From assembly GCA_001586195.1 (NCBI GenBank), contig CP014609.1, positions 1,090,001 through 1,154,000 of the forward strand: a DNA stretch of 64,000 nucleotides, read 5' to 3'. The position numbers were made by a program, and so were the translations under genes. Source of the stretch: Solibacillus silvestris. GTDB lineage: Bacteria > Bacillota > Bacilli > Bacillales_A > Planococcaceae. Position 1 is the first letter of the stretch; every line of letters starts with the position of its first letter. Positions 6,797 through 31,629 of the stretch are shown here, piece after piece. A model generated the notes under the pieces. It was not told the origin of the DNA and did no database searches. It worked only from the letters and a program-made list of their open reading frames with translations.

Positions 6797-7192
6797 CATC
6801 AATATTCGAGTAATCGCTGCGATTTCTATATCGTAGAGGAAAGTCCATGCTCACACGGTGCTGCGATGCCCGTAGTGTTCGTGCTTACTGAAAAAATAAG
6901 GTAAGGCAAGAGAATTTCTCTTGACGGCGGAAGGAACTCCTAAGTCTTTTAGATATGGACAAAACTTCCTGAAAGTGCCACAGTGACGGAGCTTATAGTG
7001 AAAGCTATAAGGTGGAACGAGGTAAACCCCATGAGTGAGAAACCCAAATTATGGTAGGGGCACTCTCCTGAAGGAATTGAACGGATGGAGGGACGGTCAG
7101 CATGGCCGTAGATAGATGATTACTACCTAGTCGTACGAGGCGCAAGCTGTTTGAGTACTTAGGAACAAAACATGGCTTATTGATTATTGATG
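6797..7192 (+). ncRNA. rnpB: RNase P RNA, type B (Bacillus-type)
   Basis: Catalytic RNA that removes the 5' leader from tRNA precursors. The universally conserved GAGGAAAGTCC is at 6836-6846, followed by CACGGTGCTG and GCCCGTAGTGTTCGTGC. The core segments GAAAGTGCCACAGTGACGG, GGTAAACCCC, GAGAAACCCAAAT and AGATAGATGATT all follow in the order of B. subtilis RNase P RNA, ending with GGAACAAAACATGGCTTA. Ends are set by helix P1: CATCAAT at 6797-6803 pairs with ATTGATG at 7186-7192. A T run and a second hairpin terminator follow. Confidence 0.97.
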
Positions 7193-12637: not shown

Positions 12638-13102
12638 TTACTCGTCTTCTTCAGTATCGATTGTATAGAGAATAACAAAATCTCCAATACCTTCTATTGT
12701 TGCGGGTATTTTAAATGCTTGCTTAAAGCCATATAATTTCGTATGTCCAACCATCACGGTAGGTGGCGTAATATCAAGCTCCAAATCATGTTGGACCGTG
12801 TATGTACATAAATTACCGGCAATCATATTACCAAGTTCCCCTGTAAAAGATTCCAGCATAGCACCTTCCAAAGGCATTCCGAACATTGCAGAGCCGAGTG
12901 AACTAAATTTTTCCGGTGTACCATCAATGATAATGCGCCCTTTAATATCACCAACTAATCCTATTAGCACACCCATCTCAAGTTGTTCATACGGTTCATT
13001 TATGATGGAAGGAGATTTTACATCTATAATCATAGGTAATATAGTTTTTAGTGAATTTATTGTCCCGTTTAAAATGGTTTGAATATGCGTCGAATTACTC
13101 AA
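12638..13102 (-). CDS. cheX: CheX-like chemotaxis phosphatase
   Basis: A 154-residue member of the CheC/CheX/FliY phosphatase family, which dephosphorylates CheY-P or related response regulators. The single signature helix ESFTGELGNMIAGN places the catalytic pair at Glu89 and Asn92. Having one such motif and a C-terminal strand-rich region makes it CheX-like rather than CheC. TTG at 13102 is the start, with GGAAGGAG 8 nt upstream. No other chemotaxis gene lies nearby, so its target is unknown; it may act on a non-motility response regulator. Monocistronic, convergent with the helicase gene. Confidence 0.75.
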   Translation of the reverse strand: MSNSTHIQTILNGTINSLKTILPMIIDVKSPSIINEPYEQLEMGVLIGLVGDIKGRIIIDGTPEKFSSLGSAMFGMPLEGAMLESFTGELGNMIAGNLCTYTVQHDLELDITPPTVMVGHTKLYGFKQAFKIPATIEGIGDFVILYTIDTEEDE

Positions 13103-13186: not shown

Positions 13187-13215
13187 TTGACAGACAATTT
13201 CAGAGCATATATAAT
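13187..13215 (+). promoter_or_regulatory. Consensus sigma-A promoter of the 26-aa gene
   Basis: TTGACA (13187-13192), a 17-nt spacer and TATAAT (13210-13215): a perfect match to the consensus, predicting very strong transcription starting near 13221-13223 inside the Fur box. Confidence 0.85.
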
Positions 13216-13220
13216 GAAAA

Positions 13221-13235
13221 TGATAATTATTATCA
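13221..13235. promoter_or_regulatory. Perfect Fur box
   Basis: TGATAATTATTATCA is an exact match to the Bacillus 7-1-7 Fur consensus TGATAATnATTATCA. It covers the predicted transcription start, where bound Fur-Fe(II) would block RNA polymerase, so the downstream gene should be derepressed under iron starvation. Confidence 0.85.
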
Positions 13236-13256
13236 GTGAATAGGGCGGTGTTTAAA

Positions 13257-13337
13257 ATGTTGTATACTTTTATTGGGGCAACAGTAATCGTTTATGTAGC
13301 AATTGGAAACTATGTATTAAAAAATGTAGCGAATTAG
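13257..13337 (+). CDS. 26-aa Fur-regulated single-span membrane microprotein
   Basis: ATG at 13257 opens a 26-codon frame ending TAG at 13337. The product starts MLYTFIGATVIVYVAIGNY and ends with a short tail containing one Lys; residues 2-21 can form one membrane helix. AGGGCGGTG gives a ribosome site about 7 nt upstream. The gene has a consensus promoter, a perfect Fur box over the start of transcription, and a hairpin terminator 24 nt after the stop, so the whole unit spans only about 200 nt. I do not recognise the sequence. It is too short for routine gene callers. Its role is an inference: part of the iron-starvation response, perhaps as a small subunit or regulator of a membrane transporter or oxidase. 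Confidence 0.7.
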   Translation: MLYTFIGATVIVYVAIGNYVLKNVAN

Positions 13338-13360
13338 AAAGTAAATATTAAAAATTATTC

Positions 13361-13391
13361 ATCGCATTGTCACATAGACAATGCGATTTTT
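13361..13391 (+). terminator. Terminator of the 26-aa gene
   Basis: Perfect 11-bp stem ATCGCATTGTC (13361-13371) with GACAATGCGAT (13377-13387), followed by TTTT. It may also serve the convergent Nudix gene. Confidence 0.85.
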
Positions 13392-13414
13392 ATGTGGAAG
13401 CTAAAACATTTAGG

Positions 13415-13867
13415 TCAATTAATAGTTTCCAAATATTTTTGGATTACTATTTGATCGGGAGGGCTGATTTTTTCAGGCAGAGCACTGAAGGGGAAAAATT
13501 TTAAATCTATTGCTTCATCTGAATCAAAACGTAATGTACCGGAATAATCATCACAAATATATGTTGTTGCAACTATATATACTTCATCTCCATGTGGATA
13601 TTGATAGTATAATTCTTTGCCGGAGAATATACCAAACTGTTGTAGACTATGTGCTGTAAGTCCAGTTTCCTCGTACATTTCTCGTATAGCGACTTCTTCC
13701 AATGTTTCACCTAATTCCATTGATCCACCTGCAAGTCCCCAGCATCCATTATCCTTACGAAGCTGCATTAGTAATTGCCTTTGTTCATTTAAAATAATCA
13801 CGCAGGCACCCACCATAATAATAGGTGTAGTGCCAATTTTTTTGCGTAGATTCATTATATAGCTCAT
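13415..13867 (-). CDS. Nudix hydrolase
   Basis: A 150-residue hydrolase of nucleoside diphosphates linked to another group. The complete Nudix box (G-x5-E-x7-REU-x-EE-x-GU) occupies residues 48-70, with Gly48, Glu54, Arg62-Glu63, Glu66-Glu67 and Gly69 all present. ATG at 13867 has GGGAG 7 nt upstream. Substrate cannot be told from sequence; it could be a nucleotide-pool sanitiser or ADP-ribose-type hydrolase. It stands alone on the minus strand, 72 nt upstream of the S66 peptidase's 3' end. Confidence 0.88.
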   Translation of the reverse strand: MSYIMNLRKKIGTTPIIMVGACVIILNEQRQLLMQLRKDNGCWGLAGGSMELGETLEEVAIREMYEETGLTAHSLQQFGIFSGKELYYQYPHGDEVYIVATTYICDDYSGTLRFDSDEAIDLKFFPFSALPEKISPPDQIVIQKYLETIN

Positions 13868-13939
13868 TGAAATTCTCCCACTTCCATTGGTTATTTTTAC
13901 AATAAACGTTTCATAGACAAAATAGGTTGCGTTAATTTA

Positions 13940-14929
13940 CTAAAGCCAATGTTCAATACAGGTAATCGTTTGAGTGATTGTATCGAGACGTATTTTTTTG
14001 CCGATTGCTAAAGGAAACATCGGATGGGTATGGGCACAGTCGACATCGGCAAGTATAGGAATTATTTTTCCATCCAACTGTTCCAATAACAGATCAAGCG
14101 GCTGTTTACCGGTTCCTTCATCATCAAAGAGCTCATGTTTCCCGAGGATTATACCTCCAACTTTGTCAAAGATCCCGTGCAGTTTCAACATGGCCAAATT
14201 CTTTTCTACAGTTGACGCACTCTTTAAAGAATCCTCAATCAATAAAATATCGCCGTTTTTAATAACAGGAAAATAAGGTGTCCCGATGAAGCCATACATT
14301 GTATTATTATTGCCGCCAATTAGTCGTCCTTCGACAACACCTTCATGAAAGCTAATCCATTTATTTGAATAGAGTGTTTTTGGCTTCTCATAAGTTAGCC
14401 AGTTTATCATTTCATCTGACCAGACAGGTGACATTGGAATCGTATACGGAACGCTTGGTTGAGAAAAATAGTGTTTGAAATAATTGTAAGTTTCATGGAC
14501 AAGCGGCTCAAATTCGCCAAATGACGGGATGAGTGCAGGGCCATAATATGTAGGTATATTTGTTTTTGCGAAAAGGGCCAATAGAATTGCAGTAGTATCA
14601 GAGTATCCAATCACAATTTTCGGATTATTTTTAAACGCTTCGTAATCGATATAGGGGAGCAGGCTATTTGAATTTGTCCCACCGATTGAGGACATGATCA
14701 TTTTAATCGAAGGATCTCTTAGTAGTTGATTGAATTCTTTAGCTCGTTCTTTTGGCGTACCTGACCGATAGCCATCTTGTTTACCTGTTAGATTTCCCTC
14801 TATAATATGAAATCCTTTTGCCTGTAGAAATTCTTTACCGCGATCGTAGCGTAATTTTGCGGTAGAGGTTGCCGGGACAGAAGATGAAAAAATACCGATT
14901 TTATCTCCTCGTTGCAATGGTTGAAACAT
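13940..14929 (-). CDS. S66 serine peptidase, MccF/LD-carboxypeptidase-like
   Basis: Serine peptidase of 329 residues in the MEROPS S66 family, which includes LD-carboxypeptidase (murein recycling) and MccF (immunity to microcin C-type peptidyl-nucleotides). The nucleophile is the Ser in VIGYSDTTAILLA, with the supporting Glu in the IGGNN...LLIED region and the His near the C-terminus in CAHTHPMFPLAIG. SSIGGTNSNSLLPYIDY is also typical. ATG at 14929 follows AGGTGAT. No neighbouring microcin genes, so specificity is open. Divergent from glutaminase. Confidence 0.85.
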   Translation of the reverse strand: MFQPLQRGDKIGIFSSSVPATSTAKLRYDRGKEFLQAKGFHIIEGNLTGKQDGYRSGTPKERAKEFNQLLRDPSIKMIMSSIGGTNSNSLLPYIDYEAFKNNPKIVIGYSDTTAILLALFAKTNIPTYYGPALIPSFGEFEPLVHETYNYFKHYFSQPSVPYTIPMSPVWSDEMINWLTYEKPKTLYSNKWISFHEGVVEGRLIGGNNNTMYGFIGTPYFPVIKNGDILLIEDSLKSASTVEKNLAMLKLHGIFDKVGGIILGKHELFDDEGTGKQPLDLLLEQLDGKIIPILADVDCAHTHPMFPLAIGKKIRLDTITQTITCIEHWL

Positions 14930-15037
14930 ACAATCACCTATCTTTGCTAATTTATAGTTTTCGGTATATGTTAAAATTATACAATATATTCGAATGGAAA
15001 AAAGGAAATAATAAATATAGCGTATATGATAGAAAAT

Positions 15038-15074
15038 GGGGAGGTGAGCAGCTAGTTACAGCAACTAGTGTCCA
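15038..15074 (+). promoter_or_regulatory. Distant Shine-Dalgarno with intervening hairpin before glsA
   Basis: GGGGAGGTGA (15038-15046) is an excellent ribosome site but lies about 28 nt before ATG 15075, too far for normal use. Between them CTAGTT (15052-15057) and AACTAG (15063-15068) form a 6-bp hairpin with a 5-nt loop. Folding this hairpin would leave a spacing of about 9 nt. An in-frame TAG at 15066 excludes any earlier start for glsA. Confidence 0.5.
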
Positions 15075-15995
15075 ATGAATAAATTACAAATGATTTATGA
15101 ACAGGCAAAGCAAAGGACAGCCAATGGTCAGGTCGCATCTTATATACCGGCGCTTGCAGCAGCAAATGGTGATTTATTTGCTGTAAGTTTACTAAGTGCA
15201 GAACATGAAATCGAATTAGGGGATTGTACAGAAACTTTTACGCTTCAAAGTGTCGTGAAAGTAATCAGTTTTATGGTTGCTGCCAATTATCACGGGATAG
15301 AGGAAATCATGCACTATGTTGATGTGGAGCCGACAGGAGATTCATTTAATTCGATCGTCCGCCTGGAGAGCCATAATAATAAGCCGTTCAATCCGATGAT
15401 TAATGCAGGAGCAATAACAATTGCCTCGTTACTTCCAGGTGAGACAATGTTCGAAAAAGTGAAATCTGTGACGACTTTTTTAGAACAAATTATCGGAAAG
15501 AAAGTGCATATTAATAATGAAGTGTATTTTTCGGAATACCAGTCCGCTGATTATAACCGCGCAATCGCCTATATATTACAGGCGAACGGTTTTTTGAAAT
15601 CCGATGTGGAAGAAGCGCTTCAAGTGTATTTACAGCTTTGCTCGATTTCAGTAGATGTATCGGATTTAGCGAAATTAGCATTTTATTTTGCGACGAATGG
15701 AAAAGAAAGTGAAGCTATTTGCAATAAGGGAGTCATTAATATTGCGAAAGCATTAATGATTACATGCGGAATGTACAATGCGTCCGGAAAATTTGCGGCA
15801 TTCATTGGATTACCAGCCAAAAGCGGAGTATCCGGTGCAATTATTGCCGTTGTGCGTAATGGAGAAATTGAACAGCTGCAAGGGCCAATTGGAATCGGCA
15901 TCTATGGACCCGCAATTGATCAAGTCGGCAATAGTGTGGCGGGCATCGAGTTTCTGATGCATCTGTCAAAGGAATATGATTTGTTTTGTTTATAG
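15075..15995 (+). CDS. glsA: Glutaminase
   Basis: Serine-dependent beta-lactamase-like hydrolase converting glutamine to glutamate and ammonia. The 306-residue length and motifs fit the family: YIPALAAANGDLFAVSL at the N-terminus, the catalytic Ser59-x-x-Lys62 in TLQSVVKV, NKPFNPMINAGAI, and the C-terminal SGVSGAIIAVV segment. ATG 15075 is the first possible start because a stop codon lies 9 nt upstream in frame; the ribosome site is set back behind a hairpin (see separate entry). Glutamate supply links it functionally to gdhA further along. Confidence 0.92.
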   Translation: MNKLQMIYEQAKQRTANGQVASYIPALAAANGDLFAVSLLSAEHEIELGDCTETFTLQSVVKVISFMVAANYHGIEEIMHYVDVEPTGDSFNSIVRLESHNNKPFNPMINAGAITIASLLPGETMFEKVKSVTTFLEQIIGKKVHINNEVYFSEYQSADYNRAIAYILQANGFLKSDVEEALQVYLQLCSISVDVSDLAKLAFYFATNGKESEAICNKGVINIAKALMITCGMYNASGKFAAFIGLPAKSGVSGAIIAVVRNGEIEQLQGPIGIGIYGPAIDQVGNSVAGIEFLMHLSKEYDLFCL

Positions 15996-16000
15996 TACAA

Positions 16001-16041
16001 AAAGGAACATTCCATCATAATAGATGAAGGAATGTTCCTTT
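16001..16041. terminator. Bidirectional terminator between glsA and the Lsa-type gene
   Basis: Perfect 13-bp stem AAAGGAACATTCC (16001-16013) with GGAATGTTCCTTT (16029-16041), flanked by A-rich and T-rich tracts; serves both convergent genes. Confidence 0.88.
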
Positions 16042-16047
16042 CTTAAT

Positions 16048-17508
16048 TTAATGATAAGGGATGAGCTCAATAACTTTCGTTGCTGTATTTTTTACGAATG
16101 TTGCATCATGCTCCACGAATAATAAAGTCGGTTTAAAGTGAGCGATCATTTTCTCGATTTGTTGCTGGTTAAAGACGTCCAAATAGTTGAGCGGTTCGTC
16201 CCAAATATAAAATTCAGCTTCGAGTCCGAGCGACCTTGAAAATTCGACTTTCTTTTGCTGACCCATGCTCATCTTTTCAATAGGCACCTGAAAAACATCA
16301 CGGTTAAATCCGAAAATACGTAAATTGTTCAAAAATAAGGTGTAGTCGATTTCATGATCCGAAGCAAAATCCTTTAATATCCCCCGGTTATCCTCATAAT
16401 TTTGGCGAATTATACTTGTGCTCAACCCTTGCGGCATCAGTATTTCACCATTAGCGGTACCGGAAAATGTTCCTTGTAAAAATTGAACAAGTGATGTTTT
16501 CCCGCTGCCGTTCGGTCCGACAATAGCAACTTGCTCTCCTTGGAATAGTTCAAAGGAAATAGGATGGAACAGCGGTTGGTCACTGTAACTTAACGTAAAG
16601 TTTTTCATTCGAAGCACAGGATTCCGATGCTTATATTGACAGTTAATCGTCAAATCGCTTACCGTCTCGATATTTTTTAACAGTTTCGTTTTATCTTCAA
16701 TTTTCTCCTGTGTCCGTTTTTCAATCGCCTTTGCCCGTTTATTCATGCGCTTTGCAATGGCATTCCCAAATGGATCATTGCCAGAAGGTTTTTCGCGTTG
16801 CGCGGCCCAGTTCGATTTTTCCCGCGCAGTTTTTTGCAGGCGATTTATTTCAGCATTTAATGAGCGATTTTGCTCGAGTTCAAACTCATCCTGCAGCTTT
16901 TTTTCCTGTTCATAGATGGAGAAATTCCCTTTGTATAGGCTCAGCCGGTTTTTTTCAATCGCTAAAATATGCGTCACTACTTCATTAATAAAATGCCGGT
17001 CATGACTGACGACAATAAAGCCTTTTTTCTTTTTCAAATAGTTTGCCACAATGGACCGGCCTTTCGTATCCAGGTGATTCGTCGGTTCATCGAGCAGCAA
17101 AAAACGGTTTTCTCCACAAAAGACGGCCGCAAGCATTACTTTCGTTTGTTCACCGCCTGATAATTGCTCAAAGGGCGCCCATAGCAACGATTGATCAAGC
17201 GACAAAAGCCGACATTCCCGCTCTAGCTTCCATAGCTCTACAGGCATTACTTCATCAATTGCGTAATACGTACTAACTTTTGAATTACGAATGGCAAGGG
17301 GAAAATATTGAAATTCTTCGTCGCTCGTAACCGTTCCGCTGTAAGGTAATTTGTTTTGCAGTAACCGCAATAAAGTTGTTTTTCCACGACCATTGCGTCC
17401 TATTAGTCCGAGTTTCCAGGAATTATCGATCGTTATATTAATGTTGTTAAATAATGGTTCATCCAGCAAGTCATAGCTGAACGATACGTTTTTCATTTCT
17501 ATCGGCAT
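16048..17508 (-). CDS. ABC-F ribosomal protection protein, Lsa family
   Basis: ATPase that binds the ribosomal E site and displaces peptidyl-transferase antibiotics; relatives such as Lsa(A) confer lincosamide, streptogramin A and pleuromutilin resistance. The 486-residue protein has two ABC domains: first Walker A GRNGRGKTT at 37-45 with signature LSGGEQ and LLLDEPTNHLD; second Walker A GPNGSGKTS with MSMGQQKK and the distinctive YIWDEPLNYLDVFNQQQ shared with Lsa(A). A long charged linker (about 190-310) is the antibiotic-resistance interdomain arm. The open frame extends to 17607, but that part covers a transcription terminator; ATG 17508 with GGGGG upstream is the start. No transporter subunit is nearby, as expected for ABC-F. 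Confidence 0.88.
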   Translation of the reverse strand: MPIEMKNVSFSYDLLDEPLFNNINITIDNSWKLGLIGRNGRGKTTLLRLLQNKLPYSGTVTSDEEFQYFPLAIRNSKVSTYYAIDEVMPVELWKLERECRLLSLDQSLLWAPFEQLSGGEQTKVMLAAVFCGENRFLLLDEPTNHLDTKGRSIVANYLKKKKGFIVVSHDRHFINEVVTHILAIEKNRLSLYKGNFSIYEQEKKLQDEFELEQNRSLNAEINRLQKTAREKSNWAAQREKPSGNDPFGNAIAKRMNKRAKAIEKRTQEKIEDKTKLLKNIETVSDLTINCQYKHRNPVLRMKNFTLSYSDQPLFHPISFELFQGEQVAIVGPNGSGKTSLVQFLQGTFSGTANGEILMPQGLSTSIIRQNYEDNRGILKDFASDHEIDYTLFLNNLRIFGFNRDVFQVPIEKMSMGQQKKVEFSRSLGLEAEFYIWDEPLNYLDVFNQQQIEKMIAHFKPTLLFVEHDATFVKNTATKVIELIPYH

Positions 17509-17565
17509 ATATGCATACCCCCAAATGTTGATTTGAAAGTATACGCATTCACAAAGATATCGATA

Positions 17566-17597
17566 TAAAAAAATCCTTCTGAAAAAGTCAGAAGGAT
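17566..17597 (-). terminator. Leader terminator (attenuator) of the Lsa-type gene
   Basis: On the minus strand ATCCTTCTGA and TCAGAAGGAT form a perfect 10-bp stem followed by seven T, 58 nt before the gene start. It is a full intrinsic terminator inside the 5' leader. Confidence 0.85.
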
Positions 17598-17662
17598 TAG
17601 TATTCATACGTAAATAAGCCTTTAAGTTCGCTAAAGGAAGTATAAATGGGCAGACTAATCCT
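17593..17662 (-). promoter_or_regulatory. Antiterminator pairing in the Lsa-type leader
   Basis: On the minus strand AGGATTAGT (17662-17654) is perfectly complementary to ACTAATCCT (17601-17593). The second arm overlaps the 5' half of the terminator stem, so this pairing and the terminator exclude each other. A small CCTTTA/TAAAGG hairpin lies between the arms. The arrangement matches antibiotic-induced attenuation known for vmlR- and lsa-type genes. Confidence 0.75.
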
Positions 17663-17687
17663 ATTTTATGTGAAAATGCGTATACAT
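17661..17687 (-). CDS. Candidate leader peptide MYTHFHIK
   Basis: An 8-codon frame from ATG 17687 to TAG 17661; its stop codon overlaps the 5' arm of the antiterminator. The upstream ribosome site is weak. A ribosome stalled here by antibiotic would alter leader folding. Tentative. Confidence 0.35.
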   Translation of the reverse strand: MYTHFHIK

Positions 17688-17709
17688 TTTACGTGTAAAA
17701 TAGAATTAT

Positions 17710-17724
17710 TTATCCATCAGCCAT
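17710..17724 (-). CDS. Candidate leader peptide MADG
   Basis: A 4-codon frame (ATG 17724 to TAA 17710) with a strong GGAAAGGA site (17738-17731) 6 nt upstream. Ribosome loading at this minimal frame may be what senses the drug. Tentative because of its length. Confidence 0.35.
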   Translation of the reverse strand: MADG

Positions 17725-17752
17725 TCAACTTCCTTTCCAGTAAATTACTAGT

Positions 17753-17781
17753 AGTATGGCATAGATTGATTGGAATTTCAA
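17753..17781 (-). promoter_or_regulatory. Predicted promoter of the Lsa-type gene
   Basis: On the minus strand TTGAAA (17781-17776), 17-nt spacer, CATACT (17758-17753). It would give a leader of about 240 nt containing both short frames and the attenuator. Confidence 0.45.
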
Positions 17782-17935
17782 CCCTCTTTATTCCTGTAAC
17801 AAATAACTCCAGAGTGCATTGACCTCCGAAAAACCTGTCTTGAAGTAAAGCCAATTTGCTTCAAGGATACAATAAATCCGATTTTCCGCGAAGAAAATGA
17901 TAAAGGTGAATTAGTTATATTTGATAAACAAAAAA

Positions 17936-17949
17936 TAAAAACGTTTACA
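17936..17949 (+). promoter_or_regulatory. CcpA cre-like site upstream of the DUF2087 regulator
   Basis: TAAAAACGTTTACA matches 13 of 14 positions of the cre consensus TGWAANCGNTNWCA. It lies 43 nt before the regulator's start, suggesting catabolite control. Confidence 0.4.
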
Positions 17950-17991
17950 AATACAATAACATATATTATAAATGTTACAGAGGTGATATTT

Positions 17992-18720
17992 TTGGAAATT
18001 CAAAATATTTCAACGGAAGCACTTATAAAAGGATATGAAATGAAACAGGAACGATATCAATGTTTGTTTTGTGGAGAATCCTATCATTTGGATGAAGTTT
18101 TTCCTTACGACGAACGTTTTCTAACAGCGGAAGGCATGATTAAAAAGCATATTGAGAGTGCACATATTTCATCATTTCACGCTTTGCTTGCTTTAGATAA
18201 AAAAGTAAGCGGGTTGTCAGATGTTCAAATTGAAATGATGCAGCATTTTTTCGAAGGTAAAACAGATCTGGAAATTGTAAATGATAGCAATGTTTCAAGT
18301 GTATCAACAGTTCGCCAGCATCGGTTTAAACTTCGCGAAAAGGAAAAACAGGCGAAAATTTTTGTTGCACTTATGCAGTTAATGAAAAACCCTGAACATT
18401 ATCAGATTCATAAAGGAGCGAGGCAAGTGGACGAACGTTACAGTATTGAACAGAAGGAACGTGAAAAAGTGCTGACTACCTATTTTAAAAACGGATTGGA
18501 CGCCGGGATTGAAACAATTCCAAGTAAGGAAAAGAAAAAGCTTATTATCCTGCAACATATTTTAAAGCGTTTTGAAGAGAGTAAACACTACCATGAAAAA
18601 GAGGTAAATGAAATTTTAAAAACTGTTCATGATGATTTTGTATCGCTGCGCCGTCATCTGATTGAGTACGGCTTTATGGAGCGCAATGACGATGGTTTGG
18701 AGTATTGGGTGAAAAAATAG
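17992..18720 (+). CDS. DUF2087-domain transcriptional regulator
   Basis: A 242-residue probable DNA-binding regulator. Residues 22-60 contain CLFCGESY and a downstream His pair (HIESAH), resembling a C2H2-like zinc site. Residues 70-120 look like a LuxR/sigma-type helix-turn-helix (GLSDVQIEMMQHFFEGKTDLEIVN...STVRQHRFKLREKEKQ). Residues 150-242 match DUF2087 (GLDAGIETIPSKEKKKLIILQHILKRFE...LRRHLIEYGFMER). TTG at 17992 has GAGGTGA 5 nt upstream and is preferred to GTG 17983 within that site. Probably co-transcribed with the DUF6176 gene 11 nt downstream. Target unknown. Confidence 0.7.
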   Translation: MEIQNISTEALIKGYEMKQERYQCLFCGESYHLDEVFPYDERFLTAEGMIKKHIESAHISSFHALLALDKKVSGLSDVQIEMMQHFFEGKTDLEIVNDSNVSSVSTVRQHRFKLREKEKQAKIFVALMQLMKNPEHYQIHKGARQVDERYSIEQKEREKVLTTYFKNGLDAGIETIPSKEKKKLIILQHILKRFEESKHYHEKEVNEILKTVHDDFVSLRRHLIEYGFMERNDDGLEYWVKK

Positions 18721-18731
18721 GGGGGCACGAG

Positions 18732-19079
18732 ATGAAGGTGGAGTTGACACGATATCGTGTGAAAGAAGGGAAAACTTCGAAAGTTATGGAATGGCTTGAT
18801 TTTTTAAACAATCATATGGAAGATGTACTCGTAACACTGGAGGGGGAAAAGATGTTTGTGGAAACAATTTTTCATGAACATTTGAATGGTGAAGAATATT
18901 TATACTGGTATTCTGTGCAAGGAAACGGTGGATTGGATGTAGAAGATTCCGCACATTGGATCGATAAAAAACATCTGGAATACTGGGATGAATGTATCGA
19001 TGAAAGTTTTGGTTCGGTTGATTTAATAACAAAAGTTGTAATGATTCCTGAAAAAGTTCGGGCTAGTATGAACGATTAA
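18732..19079 (+). CDS. DUF6176-like small protein
   Basis: A 115-residue soluble protein resembling the DUF6176 family (opening VELTRYRVKEGKTSKVMEWLDFLNN, then EGEKMFVETIF and YWYSVQG), which may adopt an alpha-beta barrel-like dimeric fold of the kind seen in small monooxygenase-like proteins. No catalytic residue can be assigned. ATG at 18732 has GGGGG upstream. It follows the DUF2087 regulator closely, so the two are probably one unit, with the regulator perhaps controlling this gene. Confidence 0.65.
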   Translation: MKVELTRYRVKEGKTSKVMEWLDFLNNHMEDVLVTLEGEKMFVETIFHEHLNGEEYLYWYSVQGNGGLDVEDSAHWIDKKHLEYWDECIDESFGSVDLITKVVMIPEKVRASMND

Positions 19080-19260
19080 CGAAGCCGTTACTCATGATTT
19101 CAGGAAAAGGAACTTTATAATAGAAGTGATTGTTGTTGAATATCCTTTAATAAAAATCGTTCATTTTTGTCCTTTAAACAAGAAAACCGACTAAAACTAT
19201 ACGATTATCTTAATATCAATCAAAATACTTGTATTATAGTAGTATTATATTATATTATAT

Positions 19261-19292
19261 TCCTATTGATAAACTTGGTTTTATAAATAGGA
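19261..19292 (+). promoter_or_regulatory. Possible RBS-masking hairpin before tsuA
   Basis: TCCTATT (19261-19267) is the exact complement of AATAGGA (19286-19292), the second arm running into the AGGAGG ribosome site of tsuA. The 18-nt loop makes it weak, so translational control is only a suggestion. Confidence 0.3.
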
Positions 19293-19301
19293 GGAATTAT
19301 T

Positions 19302-20351
19302 TTGTTGCAAATGGCAATTACGGGTATCCTTTGTGGTGCTCTTTTAGGTTTTGTGATGCAACGTGGACGCTTCTGTTTAACAGGTGGTTTCCGGGATATG
19401 TACATCGCAAAAGATAATCGTATGTTTTATGCTTTACTAGTAGCCATTGCAGTTCAAGCGGTAGGTGTATTTCTACTGATTGAGGCAGGGGCGTTTGAAT
19501 ATACAGCAGGGCAGCTCCCATTGTGGGCAACAATTGCCGGCGCGTTTATTTTCGGTATTGGGATTATTTTAGCTGGTGGCTGTGCAACAGGTACTTGGTA
19601 TCGTGCGGGTGAAGGCTTAATCGGAAGCTGGATCGCCTTAGCATTTTACATGTTAATGGCAGCTATTATGAAGTCAGGTCCATTAGCACAATTTACAGTT
19701 GAAGCACGTACACCGGTAGTAGGTACTGATTCAATTGCCGAAACATTTGGCATTAATGTCTGGTTTTTAGTCATACCGTTTGTTGCATTGGTAGCATTCA
19801 TTGTTTACCGTGAATTGCGCAAACCACGTGTGAAAATTCCAGGCTTGAAACCTAAGAAAACAGGCTTGGCACATATTTTATTCGAAAAACGCTGGAATCC
19901 TTATGTGACAGCAACTTTAATCGGTTTGATCGCAACATTGGCATGGCCTTTAAGTGCCGCATCAGGACGTATTTTCGGTTTAGGGATTACAACACCTTCA
20001 GCGAACATTCTGCAGTTTTTAGTAACTGGGGATTTAGACATCATTAACTGGGGTGTATTCCTTGTAATGGGTATTTTATTCGGTTCATACTTTGCTGCTA
20101 AAATGAGCGGTGAATTCCGTCTGCGTACACCCGATACAAAAACAGTTGTACGAAGCTCTGGCGGCGGTATTTTAATGGGATTCGGCGCAAGTCTTGCAGG
20201 CGGCTGTTCAATCGGGAACGGTCTTGTTATGACAGCTATGATGACTTGGTCGGGTTGGGTAGCTTTAGTATTCATGATTTTGGGGACATGGACAGCATCG
20301 TACTTCGTATTTGTGCGTCCATCAAAAAAACGTGCAGTAGCGCGTGCTTAA
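19302..20351 (+). CDS. tsuA: YeeE/YedE-type thiosulfate (sulfur) transporter
   Basis: Membrane protein of 349 residues with about nine hydrophobic helices in the YeeE/YedE (DUF395) family, whose best-studied member TsuA imports thiosulfate through a relay of conserved cysteines. Three cysteines sit in the expected places: Cys25 (GRFCLTGG), Cys94 (GGCATGTWYR) and Cys302 (GGCSIGNG). TTG at 19302 has AGGAGGA 7 nt upstream. The next gene encodes a TusA-like sulfur carrier 13 nt away, the standard TsuA-TsuB pairing, so the two should import thiosulfate sulfur and hand it to cytosolic enzymes. Confidence 0.85.
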   Translation: MLQMAITGILCGALLGFVMQRGRFCLTGGFRDMYIAKDNRMFYALLVAIAVQAVGVFLLIEAGAFEYTAGQLPLWATIAGAFIFGIGIILAGGCATGTWYRAGEGLIGSWIALAFYMLMAAIMKSGPLAQFTVEARTPVVGTDSIAETFGINVWFLVIPFVALVAFIVYRELRKPRVKIPGLKPKKTGLAHILFEKRWNPYVTATLIGLIATLAWPLSAASGRIFGLGITTPSANILQFLVTGDLDIINWGVFLVMGILFGSYFAAKMSGEFRLRTPDTKTVVRSSGGGILMGFGASLAGGCSIGNGLVMTAMMTWSGWVALVFMILGTWTASYFVFVRPSKKRAVARA

Positions 20352-20364
20352 GGAGAGAATTAAT

Positions 20365-20589
20365 ATGAAAAAAACATTAGAAGTTTTAGGGATGGTTTGT
20401 CCGTTTCCGTTAATCGAAGCAAAAGAAGCAATTAAAGAGTTAAACACAGGCGATGAGCTGGAAGTACAATTCGACTGTACTCAAGGTACAGAATCCATTC
20501 CACGCTGGGCAGCAGAAGACGGTCATGAAGTGACAAACTACGAGCAGTTAGGCGAAGCTTCTTGGACAATTACAATTAAGAAAAAATAA
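20365..20589 (+). CDS. TusA-like sulfurtransferase (TsuB-type)
   Basis: A 74-residue sulfur-carrier protein. The N-terminal CPxP motif is CPFP with the persulfide-forming Cys12, followed by IEAKEAIKEL and a ferredoxin-like fold ending WTITIKK. It is translated from ATG 20365 with AAGGAGAG upstream, 13 nt after tsuA. In the TsuA-TsuB system this partner takes sulfur arriving through the transporter. A strong terminator follows. Confidence 0.87.
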   Translation: MKKTLEVLGMVCPFPLIEAKEAIKELNTGDELEVQFDCTQGTESIPRWAAEDGHEVTNYEQLGEASWTITIKKK

Positions 20590-20604
20590 TTTTAAGACTG
20601 TGGG

Positions 20605-20639
20605 GCAGCATCTCGATTTTTGAGGTGCTGCTTTTTTTT
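20605..20639 (+). terminator. Terminator after the tsuA-tusA unit
   Basis: GCAGCATCTC (20605-20614) pairs with GAGGTGCTGC (20622-20631), followed by TTTTTTT. Confidence 0.85.
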
Positions 20640-20684
20640 ATTCGGTTGGGGAGGAGCGGGGGATTAGTTGGCTTTGGTTTTTTA

Positions 20685-20964
20685 TTAGAACAAGTCGGAG
20701 GGATATTAGAAAATCTACAATAGAGGTTAGAAAAAAAGCGTGCCGATCACTATTTTTCGGCGGGTGCGATAGAAAAGTACTTGGCTTGGGATTTTATTAG
20801 AACAAAATAGCAGTTATTAGAAAAAGTTGGAGAGATTTTAGAAAATCCCAAGGTGATATTAGAACATCCGAACACTTATTAGAAGAACCGGGTAATATTT
20901 TAGAAAATCGGCATTTTATTAGAACAAATAAAAATATATTAGAAGATTTCCAAATATATTAGAA
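20685..20964. repeat. Phased TATTAGAA array B, 13 motif copies over 14 unit positions
   Basis: Reverse-complement orientation of arrays A and C. TTAGAA-type motifs begin at 20685, 20706, 20727, 20769 (ATAGAA), 20797, 20817, 20838, 20859, 20879, 20900, 20919, 20939 and 20959. Steps are 19-21 nt except 42 nt (two units, one decayed near 20748) and 28 nt. Most copies read (A/T)TATTAGAA(A/C/G)A. It occupies the gap between the tusA terminator and the convergent LysR gene. Confidence 0.85.
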
Positions 20965-21028
20965 AACCGCCCAACGACAGCCGCTCTCCGCTCTTAATAA
21001 AAGACAAAAGGGACTACCGAATAGCCCC

Positions 21029-21943
21029 TCACAATGAATTGGCGGAAAAAGACAACTGATAATTTGTCAGCGCAGGTTCCAATAAATCAAGAAATGCTTT
21101 AAAAGCAGGAGATTGCAGGCGCTCCTTTTGATAGATCAGCAATGTTTCTCTTTCCAGTAAAGGATGCTGAATGATATGAGCGTGCAGTTTATCCGACACG
21201 TGAAGGTCAAACAATGTTTTGGCTACAATCGTTCCACCAAGACCTTGCTCTACAAATTGAAAAATAGCGGGAATGCTCGATGTTTCAAACTTCGGCTCAA
21301 TCGATAACTTGTCCGATTTAGCCGCAGCATTTAAAATTCGCCGGCACAGGTGGGCATTTGGAAACAAAACAAGTGGTTCGTTTAGAATGTCACGCAATTG
21401 TACGGGTTCATGTTGTGCAGCGCTGTCTTTGCTTTCTACATAACAGAACTGTTCAGTGTATAAAGGGATTTCCACAAACTGCTCATCGTAGTTTTCAATC
21501 AGTGGTGAAAACGAAAAGCCGATATCGATTTTATTGTTCTTCAATAATGTATGAATATCTTCACCGGAAGTAACGGTTACTTGTATATGCGGAAATTTAT
21601 GCATGAACTTTAATACTAAATCTGACACAATATTGGTCAATTCACCGGGCAATGCGCCAATACGAAGAATCCCTTTTTCAAGTGAAGCCAATTGCTGCAT
21701 TTGTATTTTTGTCGTATGCAATGTTTTAAAGATTGTTTGTGCTTGGCGGTAAAGGATCTGACCAGCTTCCGTAAGGGTGATTTTCTTGCCGATCCGGTGA
21801 AACAATGGGGTATTTACTTCATTTTCGAGCACTTTAATTTGTTGACTTAAAGTTGGCTGTGCAATATTAAGCCGTTCAGCTGCTCTTGTGAATTGCATCT
21901 CTTCACATAACATTAAAAAATACTCTAACTGTCGTAATTCCAT
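21029..21943 (-). CDS. LysR-family transcriptional regulator
   Basis: A 304-residue LysR-type regulator. The N-terminal winged helix (MELRQLEYFLMLCEEMQFTRAAERLNIAQPTLSQQIKVLENEV) is textbook, followed by a periplasmic-binding-like effector domain (about 90-295). ATG at 21943. It is not divergent from an obvious target; the upstream neighbour is the SpoVD-like gene. It lies across repeat array B from the sulfur-uptake pair, so a role in sulfur metabolism is possible but unproven. Confidence 0.88.
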   Translation of the reverse strand: MELRQLEYFLMLCEEMQFTRAAERLNIAQPTLSQQIKVLENEVNTPLFHRIGKKITLTEAGQILYRQAQTIFKTLHTTKIQMQQLASLEKGILRIGALPGELTNIVSDLVLKFMHKFPHIQVTVTSGEDIHTLLKNNKIDIGFSFSPLIENYDEQFVEIPLYTEQFCYVESKDSAAQHEPVQLRDILNEPLVLFPNAHLCRRILNAAAKSDKLSIEPKFETSSIPAIFQFVEQGLGGTIVAKTLFDLHVSDKLHAHIIQHPLLERETLLIYQKERLQSPAFKAFLDLLEPALTNYQLSFSANSL

Positions 21944-22132
21944 TAAGAACGCCTCGCTTTATTATAGTTATAAACTATCATATATATGTATTTCATAAGC
22001 TGTATCTATTGTAAATTATATATAGATAAATAGAAAGATGAGTATTTTAAATTTTTCTAAGTAACGGTTTCACTTATTGTTGCTTGAATAGAAATTCGCT
22101 TTTATTCATAACGTGAATATTGAGGTGATTTT

Positions 22133-24052
22133 TTGAAGTGGATTTCAACTATTTCTAAAAATAGATTGAGGTTAATCTTTGCGGCTTTTATACTTTTCGG
22201 CGTTATCGTTTTTATAAGACTGTTTTATGTGCAGGTTATTCAGCATGATAAACTAACAGAACTTGCAAAAACGAATTGGGATCGGGAAATTCCGTTTACT
22301 TCAGAACGGGGAGAAATTACGGACCGTAACGGTGAAGTTATTGTTACAAACGAATTGGCTCCAACGCTGTATTTCATGCCAACACAGAATGATAATATCG
22401 AAGAAGCTTCCAATCAAATTGCAGATGTACTAAATTTGGATGCAAAAAGATTATTCGAAAAAATGAATTCTAAAAGTTACCTGGTCAAACTTGCACCAGA
22501 AGCGAAAAATATTTCATACGAACAGGCGGTTAAAATTCAGGAATTGAAAATTGACGGACTCTATAGTGGTGTAGATTATGACAGGAGTTATCCGTACGGT
22601 AACTTGTTATCCCGACTAGTCGGATTTACTGGATATGATTCACAAGGACTTGCAGGAATTGAATATCAATATGATAAACTATTAACTTCAAAAGATGCAG
22701 CAATCAAGTTATTTACGGATGCAAAAGGAAAGGCATTACCCCATGTGAATGATGAATGGCGAGAAGGGAAGCAAGGAGCAACGGTAGGTTTAACAATTGA
22801 TTTAGAAGTTCAGAAAGTAATAGAACGGGAACTGTCACAAGCTATGACAAAATATAATGCGGAACAGGCACTAGCTATTGCGATGAATCCCAAAACTGGT
22901 GAAATTTTAGCACTTTCTTCATATCCTACATACGATCCATCAAAGTTTGAAGAAGTAGAATCATCCATTTACAATCGAAATTTGCCGGTATGGATGACTT
23001 ATGAGCCAGGGTCAACCTTTAAGATTATAACATTGAGTGCCGCTGTTGAAGAAAATGTAGTGGATCTGGAAAAGGATACTTATTTTGATAAAGGTTACAC
23101 AATGGTGGAAGGTGTGAGACTTCGCTGTTGGAAACGCGATGGTCATGGAGAGGAAACGTTTTTACAAGTCGTGGAAAATTCCTGTAATCCAGGATTTATC
23201 GAGCTTGGGCAACGAGTAGGTGCTGACAAGTTAATGAAGTACATCAAGAATTTTGGGTTCGGTAAAACAACAGGTTCTAATATTGCCGGAGAAGCGTCTG
23301 GTATTTTATTTTCTGAAGAGGCATTTGGACCAGTTGAACATGCCACCACTTCTTTTGGGCAAGGTATTTCGGTGACACCAATTCAACAAGTTCAAGCAGT
23401 TGCTGCTGCGGTAAATGGTGGAAAACTGTTTACACCGTATGTTGTTTCAAAAGTCTATAATCCGGAAAGTGGAGAAGTGGTTATCGAAAATAAACCGAAC
23501 TTAAAACGTAATGTGGTCAGTGAGGAGACTTCCAAAATAGTAAGAGATGCGCTGGAGTCTGTTGTAGCAAATGGGTCAGGGAGAGCTGCATACCGGGATG
23601 GACTTCGAATCGGAGGGAAGACGGGTACTGCTCAAAAAGTCGAAAATGGACGTTATAAAGATGGGGACTATATTGTATCATTTATTGGTTTCGCACCAGC
23701 AAATGATCCGGAAGTTGTCGTATATGTTGCGGTTGATAGTCCAAAAGGGGAATTGGTATTCGGCAGTACAATTGTAGCTCCGATTGTTGGACAGATTATT
23801 GAAGATATTGCACCTATTTTGGGAATAGAAAAAGATCGGGAAGGTCAATTAGAAAAGCAATATCGTTGGGGTGATAAAATTACAGAGCGTGTACCTGATT
23901 TAGTAGGTGTACCAGTTAATGAAATTATGGAGTTGGAATATCCTTATCAGATCGAAGTACATGGTGAAGGTGAGACAGTAAAAGCGCAGTTACCGGAGCC
24001 TGAAAGTGTATTGGAACTGGATGGCACTCTTCATCTTTATTTAGAAAAATAG
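22133..24052 (+). CDS. spoVD: SpoVD-like class B penicillin-binding protein with PASTA domain
   Basis: Membrane-anchored transpeptidase of 639 residues. A membrane helix spans about 12-32, a dimerisation/pedestal domain 50-200 with SERGEITDRNGEVI, and the transpeptidase domain 240-580 with Ser294-TFK297, Ser350-CN and Lys496-TG. One PASTA domain follows at about 585-639. Length and single PASTA match SpoVD (spore cortex synthesis) rather than division PBP2B. It stands alone, outside a division-wall cluster. TTG at 22133 has GAGGTGAT upstream. A TGAATA...CATAACGT arrangement at 22085-22114 faintly resembles a sigma-E promoter. It could instead be a vegetative paralogue. Confidence 0.8.
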   Translation: MKWISTISKNRLRLIFAAFILFGVIVFIRLFYVQVIQHDKLTELAKTNWDREIPFTSERGEITDRNGEVIVTNELAPTLYFMPTQNDNIEEASNQIADVLNLDAKRLFEKMNSKSYLVKLAPEAKNISYEQAVKIQELKIDGLYSGVDYDRSYPYGNLLSRLVGFTGYDSQGLAGIEYQYDKLLTSKDAAIKLFTDAKGKALPHVNDEWREGKQGATVGLTIDLEVQKVIERELSQAMTKYNAEQALAIAMNPKTGEILALSSYPTYDPSKFEEVESSIYNRNLPVWMTYEPGSTFKIITLSAAVEENVVDLEKDTYFDKGYTMVEGVRLRCWKRDGHGEETFLQVVENSCNPGFIELGQRVGADKLMKYIKNFGFGKTTGSNIAGEASGILFSEEAFGPVEHATTSFGQGISVTPIQQVQAVAAAVNGGKLFTPYVVSKVYNPESGEVVIENKPNLKRNVVSEETSKIVRDALESVVANGSGRAAYRDGLRIGGKTGTAQKVENGRYKDGDYIVSFIGFAPANDPEVVVYVAVDSPKGELVFGSTIVAPIVGQIIEDIAPILGIEKDREGQLEKQYRWGDKITERVPDLVGVPVNEIMELEYPYQIEVHGEGETVKAQLPEPESVLELDGTLHLYLEK

Positions 24053-24077
24053 ATAGATAAATTTAAAAAAATTATTG

Positions 24078-24115
24078 AAAACAACCATTTCCTCAAAGGG
24101 CAAATGGTTGTTTTA
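24078..24115. terminator. Bidirectional terminator between spoVD-like gene and zinT
   Basis: Perfect 13-bp stem AAAACAACCATTT (24078-24090) with AAATGGTTGTTTT (24102-24114). Confidence 0.85.
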
Positions 24116-28017: not shown

Positions 28018-31000
28018 ATGACGATGTTTGACGAGAAAATTCAGGGATTGTTACAGCAATCGGCATTACAATACATAATTTATAAAGAAAATGAAGATAC
28101 AGAACGAATTGAAAAGCTCCATCTGTTTGCACGAAAGCTTTTACAAAAGGAATTTGTCATCGGTTTTGCCGGTCACTTTTCCGCGGGTAAATCGAGTATG
28201 ATCAATGCGCTGTCAGGGGAAAACATTTTAGCGACAAGCCCAATTCCGACAAGTGCGAACATTGTTAAAGTGCACAAATCGGATGAAGATTTTGCGATTC
28301 TTTATTTGCATAATGAAAAGCCGGTAAAGTTTGAAGCGGGCTATGATATTAAACAAGTAAAAGAATTGAGCAAAAACGGCGAATTGGTATCACAAATTGA
28401 AATCGGACATAGTACTTCAAGCTTGCCTGAAGGGGTAACTGTTATGGATACTCCGGGTGTTGATTCAACGGACGATGCACATGCGATGAGTACGGAGTCT
28501 GCCTTGCATATTGCCGATATGGTGTTCTACACAATGGACTACAATCATGTGCAATCTGAGCTGAACTTCCAATTTACAAAACAGTTGATGAAATACAATC
28601 CGAATGTGTATTTAATCGTCAATCAAATTGACAAGCACCGTGAAGCGGAACTTTCGTTTGAAGATTTCAAGCAATCCGTTCATAACTCATTTGCGGCATG
28701 GGGTGTTTACCCGAAAAATATTTTCTTCACATCATTACGTGAAAAAGAGCTTCCGAACAATGATTTTGATCAAGTGAAAAAAATAGTTATGGATTCGATG
28801 AATGACTGGCAGGAACAGCTGATTTTAACAGCAGAAAATACACTGACAAAGCTGCAGCACGAGCATGAAGCGTATTTGGAAGAGGAGAAGCAAGACCGCT
28901 TCACAACATATGCTGAACTCGTTTCTGAAGATGACTGGCAGCACCGTGATGATATATTAGAGCAATATGAAAAACTGACGCGTCAAACAGAACTTTTCTC
29001 GTTTGATGTATTTGATATGCAGTTTGATGAAAAACGTAAAGACTTGCTTGCAAATGCTGCAATTATGCCGGCGGATGTCCGTGATAAACTGCGTGCCTAT
29101 TTAGAAAGTCAACAAGATGACTTTAAAGTAGGCGGACTGTTTACTGCGAAAAAGAAAACAGCGGAAGAGAAAGCACGTCGTCAGGAAGATGCATATGCAG
29201 GCTTTAACCATGTTGTCCAATCACAAATTACAGGTCATATTAAAGCATTGATGAAGCAAGCGTTAAAAGATGTCGGTGCATTGAATGACGAACGGGCAGC
29301 AAGTATTGATAAGAAGGAATTTAATTTCCCGTTCTCGATTATTGAAGAACAAGTTCAAAAAAGCGCGGTTATTACAGGAGATGCGGTACTAAACTTTGCG
29401 AATCGAGTTTCTGAGGCGACAAAACGATACTTTGTCCAAACAACAGATGCATGGAAACTTGAACAAAAAGAAACATTGGAGCAAGTAGCGCGTGAAGCGG
29501 CAGCGCCTGTTAAACTGAAAATTAATGCAATGTCCGAAAAAGTGAATGCGCTTCAGCATATTATGAAAATCGAGAAATTCCAGGTGTTCAACAACACATT
29601 AATGAAACAAGTTTCCAATGAAATTCGCGCAGAATCCAAAATTTATTTGGAAAATTGGAAGCGTGAACATGAGCAGGCATTGAAAGATATTCGTCCCTTT
29701 GATGAATCGATGCTGCAGTTAAAAAATCAGGAAACAGAAATTGCTGCTGAACAAACAGAGGAAAAAGCAGGAACAGGATTAAATGTTGACACGGTAACCG
29801 AAAAAGCATTGAAAACAGCGCATATTATTAAAGATGTACAAGGCTTTAAAGAAGTATCGAGCTTCTTGACAAAAAAAGTGGAACGTCTGCAAAAACGTGA
29901 CTTTACGATTGCCTTATTCGGTGCATTCAGTGCGGGTAAATCAAGCTTTTCGAATGCTTTGATGGGAGAGCGTGTATTACCTGTATCACCAAACCCGACG
30001 ACAGCGGCAATCAATAAAATTCGTCCTGTCACACCGGAACAACCGCACGAAACAGCAGATGTTCATCTGAAAAATGAAGCACAGCTACTTGAAGATATTC
30101 AAGGCTCATATGCAGCAATTGGCATCCAAGTATCATCTTTGAAAGAAGCGTATGATCGTGCAGAAGAAGGATTGGCTGTTCCATTAACAGATGAGCGCCT
30201 GAATGTTCATAAATCCTTTATCCGTGCTTATTCGGAAGGTTATGAAACATTCATTACAAAACTTGGAACGACATTACGGGTTAATCGTCATGATTTTGAA
30301 AAATACGTGGCGCAGGAAAACCGTTCTTGTTTCGTAGACAATATTGATTTCTACTTTGATTCACCACTTACGCGTATGGGTGTAACGTTAGTAGATACAC
30401 CAGGTGCAGACTCGATCAACGCACGCCATACAGGTGTAGCGTTCGATTACATTCGAAATGCCGATGCCATTCTTTTCATAACATACTACAACCATGCATT
30501 TGCAAAAGCGGACCGTGAGTTCTTGATCCAATTAGGTCGTGTTAAAGATGCGTTTGAACTGGATAAAATGTTCTTTATCGTGAATGCCATTGACTTAGCT
30601 TCGACAATGGAAGAAGAGGAAGAAGTAAAAGGCTATGTTCGTTCAGAACTTCAACGCTTCGGTATCCGTTTCCCGAGACTTTACGGAGTATCAAGTTTAC
30701 TGGCATTAAAAGAAAAGCAGGATCAGCTCGAACATCAGTCGGGTATGGCACCATTTGAAGATGCATTCCACCACTTCCTAAATGACGAACTGATGGGTAT
30801 TGCGGTTCAGGCATTACAAGAAGAAGTGGATAAAACAGAAGCACGCCTGAATGATTTAATTACACAAACAGAAGAAAACTTGAAACGTAAAGATGAACGA
30901 CTTGAAGAATTGGCTCATTTGGAAAAGCTAGTACGTTCCAAATTCCAGACAACCCAAACAGCGATGATTGAAAGTGAGACAAAGCAAGAACTGGATGAAC

Positions 31001-31629
31001 TGTTATATTACGTACTGCAACGTGTGTACTACCGCTATCCGGACTTCTACCGTGAAAGCTACAATCCGTCCACTTTTGCGCAAATGCCGGCACAGCAAGC
31101 ATTGCAAACTGCATTAAAAGAAGTGCTGCAGGCGTTAAGCTTCGACTTCGCTCAGGAGTTGCGGGTAACGAATTTCCGTTTAGCACAATTTGTCGAGAAG
31201 AAAATGAAAGAACTGTTCAAAGAGGAAGCGCGTGAATTAAAAGAACTAAACCCAAGCTTCGCGTTTTTAAGCTATGAATCAAAAGAACCTGAAATTTTGG
31301 ATTTTACAGGTCCATTTTCAGATCCAGCACCATATGAAGTGGTAAAATCCCACTTTAAAAATGTAAAAGCATTCTTTGAAAAGAATGAAAAAGAGCAATT
31401 GCGTGATGCGCTGGAGCAACTAACAAAACCAAATGCGCAAAACTATCTGGATATGGAAAAAGCTAAAATAATGGAGTGGGCAGCAAGCCATATCGCCATT
31501 GAAGCAGAAGGATTGCGCCAGCATATGCTTGAACAGGCAGTCGAGCAGATTGAGACAGAACGTTTATTACTTCAGGAAGAAAGTCGCTTAGCTGTTTGGA
31601 AGGATATTTACGCGCAACTACAAGCGTAA
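28018..31629 (+). CDS. dynA: Two-GTPase bacterial dynamin DynA
   Basis: Large membrane-remodelling GTPase of 1203 residues, an internal fusion of two dynamin-like units as in B. subtilis DynA, which tethers and fuses membranes and protects against phage and membrane stress. The first unit has P-loop GHFSAGKS at 52-59 and switch DTPGVDSTD; the second has GAFSAGKSS near 635-643 and DTPGADSIN. Each GTPase is followed by long helical stalk regions. ATG 28018 has AAAGGGG upstream. It is followed 14 nt later by a rhodanese gene. Confidence 0.93.
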   Translation: MTMFDEKIQGLLQQSALQYIIYKENEDTERIEKLHLFARKLLQKEFVIGFAGHFSAGKSSMINALSGENILATSPIPTSANIVKVHKSDEDFAILYLHNEKPVKFEAGYDIKQVKELSKNGELVSQIEIGHSTSSLPEGVTVMDTPGVDSTDDAHAMSTESALHIADMVFYTMDYNHVQSELNFQFTKQLMKYNPNVYLIVNQIDKHREAELSFEDFKQSVHNSFAAWGVYPKNIFFTSLREKELPNNDFDQVKKIVMDSMNDWQEQLILTAENTLTKLQHEHEAYLEEEKQDRFTTYAELVSEDDWQHRDDILEQYEKLTRQTELFSFDVFDMQFDEKRKDLLANAAIMPADVRDKLRAYLESQQDDFKVGGLFTAKKKTAEEKARRQEDAYAGFNHVVQSQITGHIKALMKQALKDVGALNDERAASIDKKEFNFPFSIIEEQVQKSAVITGDAVLNFANRVSEATKRYFVQTTDAWKLEQKETLEQVAREAAAPVKLKINAMSEKVNALQHIMKIEKFQVFNNTLMKQVSNEIRAESKIYLENWKREHEQALKDIRPFDESMLQLKNQETEIAAEQTEEKAGTGLNVDTVTEKALKTAHIIKDVQGFKEVSSFLTKKVERLQKRDFTIALFGAFSAGKSSFSNALMGERVLPVSPNPTTAAINKIRPVTPEQPHETADVHLKNEAQLLEDIQGSYAAIGIQVSSLKEAYDRAEEGLAVPLTDERLNVHKSFIRAYSEGYETFITKLGTTLRVNRHDFEKYVAQENRSCFVDNIDFYFDSPLTRMGVTLVDTPGADSINARHTGVAFDYIRNADAILFITYYNHAFAKADREFLIQLGRVKDAFELDKMFFIVNAIDLASTMEEEEEVKGYVRSELQRFGIRFPRLYGVSSLLALKEKQDQLEHQSGMAPFEDAFHHFLNDELMGIAVQALQEEVDKTEARLNDLITQTEENLKRKDERLEELAHLEKLVRSKFQTTQTAMIESETKQELDELLYYVLQRVYYRYPDFYRESYNPSTFAQMPAQQALQTALKEVLQALSFDFAQELRVTNFRLAQFVEKKMKELFKEEARELKELNPSFAFLSYESKEPEILDFTGPFSDPAPYEVVKSHFKNVKAFFEKNEKEQLRDALEQLTKPNAQNYLDMEKAKIMEWAASHIAIEAEGLRQHMLEQAVEQIETERLLLQEESRLAVWKDIYAQLQA

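Follow-up and report, generated by a model that had tools for sequence, protein, structure and literature searches.

The window, a stretch of 64,000 nucleotides of Solibacillus silvestris, carries at 13187-13391, as read from its motifs, what is likely a one-gene Fur-type unit with a 26-residue peptide that gene callers probably overlook. The elements of the unit and two further genes are as follows (positions are those of the window).

12638..13102, minus strand: CheX-type chemotaxis phosphatase (PF13690 above cut-off), the divergent neighbour, outside the unit
13187..13215, plus strand: sigma-A type promoter TTGACA-N17-TATAAT (-35 TTGACA at 13187-13192, spacer of 17, -10 TATAAT at 13210-13215), the single exact match in the window
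13215..13229, plus strand: weaker Fur-like site TGAAAATGATAATTA with 3 mismatches, overlapping the Fur box
13221..13235, plus strand: perfect Fur box TGATAATTATTATCA (7-1-7), over the expected start point
13242..13250, plus strand: ribosome-binding site AGGGCGGTG, read from the sequence; relatives have similar sites
13257..13337, plus strand: FbpC-like peptide MLYTFIGATVIVYVAIGNYVLKNVAN, 26 residues and a stop (ATG at 13257, TAG at 13335-13337), a single hydrophobic helix predicted to lie N-out/C-in
13361..13391, plus strand: intrinsic terminator with an 11-bp stem, a 5-nt loop and a T run (hairpin 13361-13387, TTTT to 13391)
28018..31629, plus strand: dynA, a double-dynamin GTPase (Pfam Dynamin_N matches twice), a positional marker that probably has no functional part

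The promoter, Fur box, ribosome site, 26-codon frame and 11-bp terminator all lie where the original prediction had placed them, and its view that such a unit is unlikely to arise by chance holds: the exact promoter occurs once in the window against 0.02 expected from shuffles, and the exact Fur box occurs once in the window and in none of 100 shuffles. Chance coincidence of the motifs is rejected on these shuffles and on the recurrence of the box before homologues. No second Fur site with two or fewer mismatches is found in the window. Relatives within the genus show a TTGAC -35 and a TATAAT-like -10 element at the same place. An in-frame GTG at 13236 would yield an alternative product of 33 residues; the ATG at 13257 is favoured because of the ribosome site and because conservation in the relatives sets in there. 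The terminator folds at -16 kcal/mol (z -4.05), and its sequence varies among relatives. An Rfam scan of the unit returned no family at its gathering score.

Judged by its pattern of substitution, the 26-codon frame is a real conserved gene. The peptide is present in all 16 genomes of the window's genus (G000-G015), and among these members the frame is under purifying selection, with an omega of 0.19, a pooled pN/pS of 0.295, and 11, 9 and 23 variable columns of 25 at codon positions 1, 2 and 3, respectively. The original prediction had named loss of the frame beside a retained promoter and Fur box, as for a small RNA, as the outcome that would speak against it; the omega value argues instead for a conserved coding frame and not for a small RNA alone. 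A profile built from 19 peptides detects it in 113 of the 261 genomes of the window's family, in 10 of 19 genera, when matches are limited to E below 0.005 and frames below 80 codons; the tally at E 0.1 is 125, the difference being made up of weaker or long-frame matches. In the other 148 family genomes the profile search did not find the peptide, so it may be dispensable or more divergent in some genomes. Profile A2 missed Bacillus genomes such as G410 that profile A3 found, so the distribution given by a profile is a minimum. The peptide had been described as unannotated, which is borne out for the window peptide in both Pfam and NCBIfam: a Pfam search at E≤10 gave no match, and one relative reached DUF2523 below threshold, at E 0.016.

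Within the 3.99-Mb genome of the organism there are six perfect Fur boxes, the one at 13221-13235 among them, and four of the other five adjoin siderophore genes:

locus L080: FecCD permease and binding protein
locus L081: a second binding protein
locus L082: 2,3-dihydroxybenzoate-AMP ligase (711 bits against a cut-off of 723.55; the reading frame is incomplete at the end of the locus)
locus L083: 2,3-dihydro-2,3-dihydroxybenzoate dehydrogenase (361 bits, cut-off 300)

Because of these four neighbours the motif is taken to mark iron genes in this organism. A search of relatives for the peptide together with a Fur box, as had been suggested, found both in 101 of 109 homologue contexts (best box with two or fewer mismatches within 122 nt upstream), against 1 of 187 control starts, the latter being long genes in 41 chosen loci. 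The best box has no mismatch in 15 contexts, one in 40, two in 46, and three or more in 8. These contexts were condensed from the 190 matches above 25 bits that the joint profile gave in all loci analysed, the remaining matches scoring 15.1 bits or less; one match at 15.1 bits and matches less than 150 nt from the start of a locus were omitted. Three loci with the peptide, L094 (G028), L105 (G260) and L117 (G185), have a best box with 4 to 6 mismatches within 122 nt; Fur control may have been lost there in nature, or the box may lie farther upstream.

The converse comparison drew on the 148 family genomes in which the peptide was not found and covered the dynA upstream stretches of 20 of them, from six genera. 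The peptide is absent from all 20, and none holds a Fur box with zero or one mismatch; sites with two mismatches occur in two (L141, L143), and a site with three mismatches in three more. The case in which the frame is lost and promoter and box are kept thus went the other way, box and peptide standing together in the homologue contexts and no box of zero or one mismatch remaining in these 20 stretches. Among 29 further dynA upstream stretches, four have a box with two or fewer mismatches, each with the peptide; a fifth peptide lies at the edge of its stretch (L214), and 24 have neither box nor peptide.

With a wider profile, additional families of the class were seen to have the peptide; its gene is flanked there by ypbQ and dynA and preceded by two Fur-like boxes. 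Ten weak matches of this profile were inspected, of which seven are real and three (L175, L176, L181) were rejected. Outside the window's family the two boxes lie approximately 33-40 bp apart (L107-L111, L169-L174, L178, L235, L236), and two Fur-like sites at closer spacing are also seen in the family members L091, L106 and L121. The gene order bcsA, ypbQ, peptide, dynA was found in ten loci, which belong to six named Bacillus species (two of these represented by two loci each), another Bacillus and Peribacillus alkalitolerans. The peptide is present in all 44 genomes of the genus Bacillus (the genus of G410). The B. subtilis genome (G651) has a 29-residue version in the same bcsA-ypbQ-peptide-dynA order, and this 29-mer matches the NCBIfam model NF033217 (Fur_reg_FbpC) with 77.1 bits at a cut-off of 60. 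FbpC is given as 29 residues long in the part of the source available (PMC8464778). No direct statement of the chromosomal place of fbpC was found in the literature, and the link between FbpC and this position is made by the NF033217 match. In its accessible portion a review names ypbQ among Fur-linked genes, together with a gene spelled 'ybpR' (PMC12943173); a Fur site located between ypbQ and ypbR (dynA) would be consistent with this.

The relation of the window peptide to FbpC was followed through profiles. NF033217 gives no match at E≤10 to the window peptide or to three other peptides of its family, all of which thus stay below the 60-bit cut-off; it scores 62.6 for the B. safensis/pumilus type, 24.0 for an f14 peptide and 14.6 for the Peribacillus type, and has no score for an f29 peptide. 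A profile from Bacillus peptides only matches 14 of 36 members from the window's family at E≤10 and one at 0.01, a weak direct link, and the profile of the window's family matches 1 of 53 Bacillus members (E 0.053). The profile of the intermediate families matches all 36 members of the window's family at E≤10, 26 of them at ≤0.01, and all 53 Bacillus members at E≤0.01; the member lists of all these profile searches were themselves set by the joint profile. Its best member scores 2.2e-9 against E 0.74 for the best other reading frame of the family loci, and a spurious likeness among hydrophobic peptides is rejected on this ground. Comparison by hhalign of the family alignment A1 with the Bacillus alignment A4, a single comparison, gave a probability of 85.8 and an E value of 5.4e-6. 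By sequence, then, the window peptide appears as a divergent relative of the Fur-regulated FbpC, the relation being weak when taken directly and firm through the intermediate families. The suggestion of a new component of the iron-starvation response is not supported, since synteny, the 77.1-bit NF033217 match and the chain of profiles point to a divergent relative of a known one. Because the curated cut-off is not reached, the window peptide is termed FbpC-like and a probable positional counterpart of FbpC, not a member of NF033217.

With B. subtilis FbpC the window peptide shares a short gene behind a Fur box (26 against 29 residues), one hydrophobic helix, Y13 and V20-L21-K22, and its relatives share the dynA neighbourhood. 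It differs in having a single lysine, in having a perfect box with an overlapping weaker site where FbpC has two boxes approximately 35 bp apart, in lying 14.7 kb from dynA, and in belonging to a genus in which FsrA, FbpA and FbpB were not found.

The proposed single hydrophobic helix is supported by the alignment of 87 distinct peptides: a charged residue occurs in positions 1-17 in only two of them, and the mean peak Kyte-Doolittle value is 2.11. The tail is net positive in 83 of the 87, and by the positive-inside rule, according to which a positive tail lies in the cytoplasm, the C-terminus is placed there. Setting the start aside, the lowest weighted column entropies are found at positions 13, 20, 9, 5, 21, 19, 10 and 6, with Tyr at position 13 in 81 of 87 peptides. 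For residues 4-22, the moment of conservation has its maximum at 100 degrees per residue, a height that 54 of 20,000 shuffles also attain. Residues 6, 9, 13, 16/17 and 20 make up the constrained face of the helix, centred on Tyr13, though 5, 19 and 21, also conserved, fall outside it. This looks like packing against another helix, of a partner or of the peptide itself, and the one-sided pattern fits self-association as well as the suggested role of a membrane regulator. It is not what would be expected of an RNA chaperone. Among small regulators of membrane proteins, several are single helices for which docking on a bigger protein of the membrane is the proposed mode of action. AcrZ, KdpF and SgrT, small peptides like the window 26-mer, are named among transport SEPs in the part of the article available (PMC6385055). 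BsrE, a type I toxin peptide of 30 residues that is described as transmembrane only (PMC8464778, accessible portion), resembles the window peptide in size and in its single membrane helix; the family of the window peptide differs from toxins of this type in its Fur box, its deep conservation and its fixed chromosomal place. A search that covered little of the subscription literature found no published membrane reading of FbpC.

We consider it rather probable, on these patterns, that the unit is a one-gene Fur-repressed unit whose FbpC-like single-pass peptide docks on a larger membrane protein and is the divergent counterpart of Bacillus FbpC. As its motif suggests, iron-loaded Fur on the box over the start point would shut the promoter, and shortage of iron would lead to synthesis of the 26-mer. 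From its charge pattern, the peptide would insert as one helix with the N-terminus outside and the lysine-bearing C-terminus inside. The conserved face (6, 9, 13, 16/17, 20) would then bind one helix of a bigger membrane protein and tune that protein to scarce iron, much as other single-helix regulators do; as a speculative first guess, the partner may be a respiratory complex rich in iron or a protein that imports iron. For the wider proposal that the FbpC family is a Bacillales-wide single-helix membrane regulator, forming an FsrA-independent part of the iron-sparing response that acts at membrane proteins, we see about even chances. Read in this way, the family would extend the curated, Bacillus-centred annotation of FbpC to several families of the class and would acquire an anatomy, the one-sided membrane helix, which questions the RNA-chaperone label repeated in reviews. 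The function of FbpC would also become directly testable, as that of a widespread membrane peptide with a docking face.

The published view of FbpC would make the peptide an RNA chaperone that aids the pairing of a Fur-regulated sRNA with the mRNAs of iron proteins. Published accounts see in FbpC a putative RNA chaperone that would assist the sRNA FsrA, and they treat FbpA, FbpB and FbpC together as FsrA helpers or chaperones. In the parts of two sources available the three are postulated or suggested RNA chaperones whose binding to RNA is unconfirmed (PMC8464778, PMC7430163); they are called proposed chaperones in a third (PMC12871923), and a fourth states that their chaperone action has been demonstrated (PMC9037510), both likewise in their accessible parts. 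Against this stands the accessible text of the first of these sources, which gives RNA binding as unconfirmed for FbpA, FbpB and FbpC (PMC8464778). The window peptide, moreover, is almost entirely a hydrophobic helix with helical conservation and a single lysine. The models of the other components also match nothing in the genus: the FsrA model RF02273 is found in 0 of 37 family genomes and 0 of 16 genus genomes (stricter filters), absence of FsrA here meaning no match to this one model; FbpB (PF13040) is found in 0 of 37 and 0 of 16; and FbpA (PF13076) is found in 12 of 37 family genomes and in none of the 16 genomes of the window's genus, its own genome included. The B. subtilis positive control was found with each model. 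The window's lineage is therefore a natural test case for independence from FsrA: its peptide gene has a perfect Fur box, and none of FsrA, FbpA and FbpB is detected. In favour of a chaperone, the genome itself holds a candidate Fur-regulated iron-sparing sRNA, by its sequence features, at approximately 81,690-81,950 of contig C1 (L078:1501-1760, G000:C1:81693). The last of the six perfect Fur boxes falls there within a TTGACA/TATAAC promoter that no convincing frame follows; its RNA folds far better than shuffled sequences (z -7.8) and has C-rich loops (ACCCCCUCAU). Because of this box, fold and loops the genus may have an iron-sparing sRNA of its own, and a link of the peptide to RNA is conceivable even where FsrA is undetected. 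The same RNA shows a weak likeness to Listeria rli22 (20 bits, gathering 80, E 0.66). With the helix and the missing components weighed against the published label, a chaperone role is judged unlikely.

A second alternative, that the peptide is made when iron is scarce to partner DynA or to serve as its membrane adaptor, draws on gene position. In 41 chosen loci, mostly of about 10 kb and picked to span genera, dynA (approximately 1,200 residues, two dynamin modules) follows directly after the peptide in 29 and lies within 4 kb in 7 more; in the other 5, one of them the window, no dynA lies within about 5 kb. The adjacency is retained in families with different upstream genes. Yet dynA occurs in 260 of 261 family genomes and the peptide in 113, and of the 109 contexts, 64 show a terminator-like hairpin behind the peptide by a simple detector and 45 show none; on the greater frequency of dynA and these hairpins dynA is treated as a landmark and not as a partner. 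It also lies approximately 13-51 kb from the peptide in several family genomes, and several kb beyond it in L173. In the window the distance is 14.7 kb downstream, ypbQ is not adjacent, and no Fur box with four or fewer mismatches precedes dynA. The region 13338-28017, about 14.7 kb that separates the two, holds genes that by eye are NUDIX-like, LD-carboxypeptidase-like, glutaminase-like and ABC-F-like, and others. A reading of the peptide as the first gene of a dynA operon was rejected on the sequence evidence of its own terminator, the 14.7-kb gap in the window and the dynA gene without a Fur box. A partnership with DynA is accordingly held to be improbable.

A membrane adaptor of mRNA decay, whose helix would dock on RNase Y and steer the decay of iron-protein mRNAs, would reconcile a membrane peptide with the link to FsrA. 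RNase Y is anchored in the membrane by one N-terminal helix, and FbpB has been proposed to recruit RNases, according to the accessible part of one source (PMC12871923). This variant is considered very unlikely, FsrA being undetected in the genus, and the docking peptide with a larger membrane protein as its partner remains the preferred reading. That the unit encodes a small RNA or dual-function RNA with an incidental frame, as its shortness, Fur-type control and own terminator might suggest, is extremely improbable given the codon-level selection on the frame, the family-wide peptide profile, the lack of an Rfam family at its gathering score and the differing terminator sequences of relatives; the first and third of these points also led to rejection of an sRNA alone.

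Two other RNA features are present in the window. The RNase P RNA (class B) lies at 6802-7184 on the plus strand, and a match to the Rfam family ncr1575 (Bacillus sRNA; 78.6 bits, gathering 60) lies at 17567-17749 on the minus strand, where it overlaps the ABC-F-like gene (16048-17607) at its 5' end.
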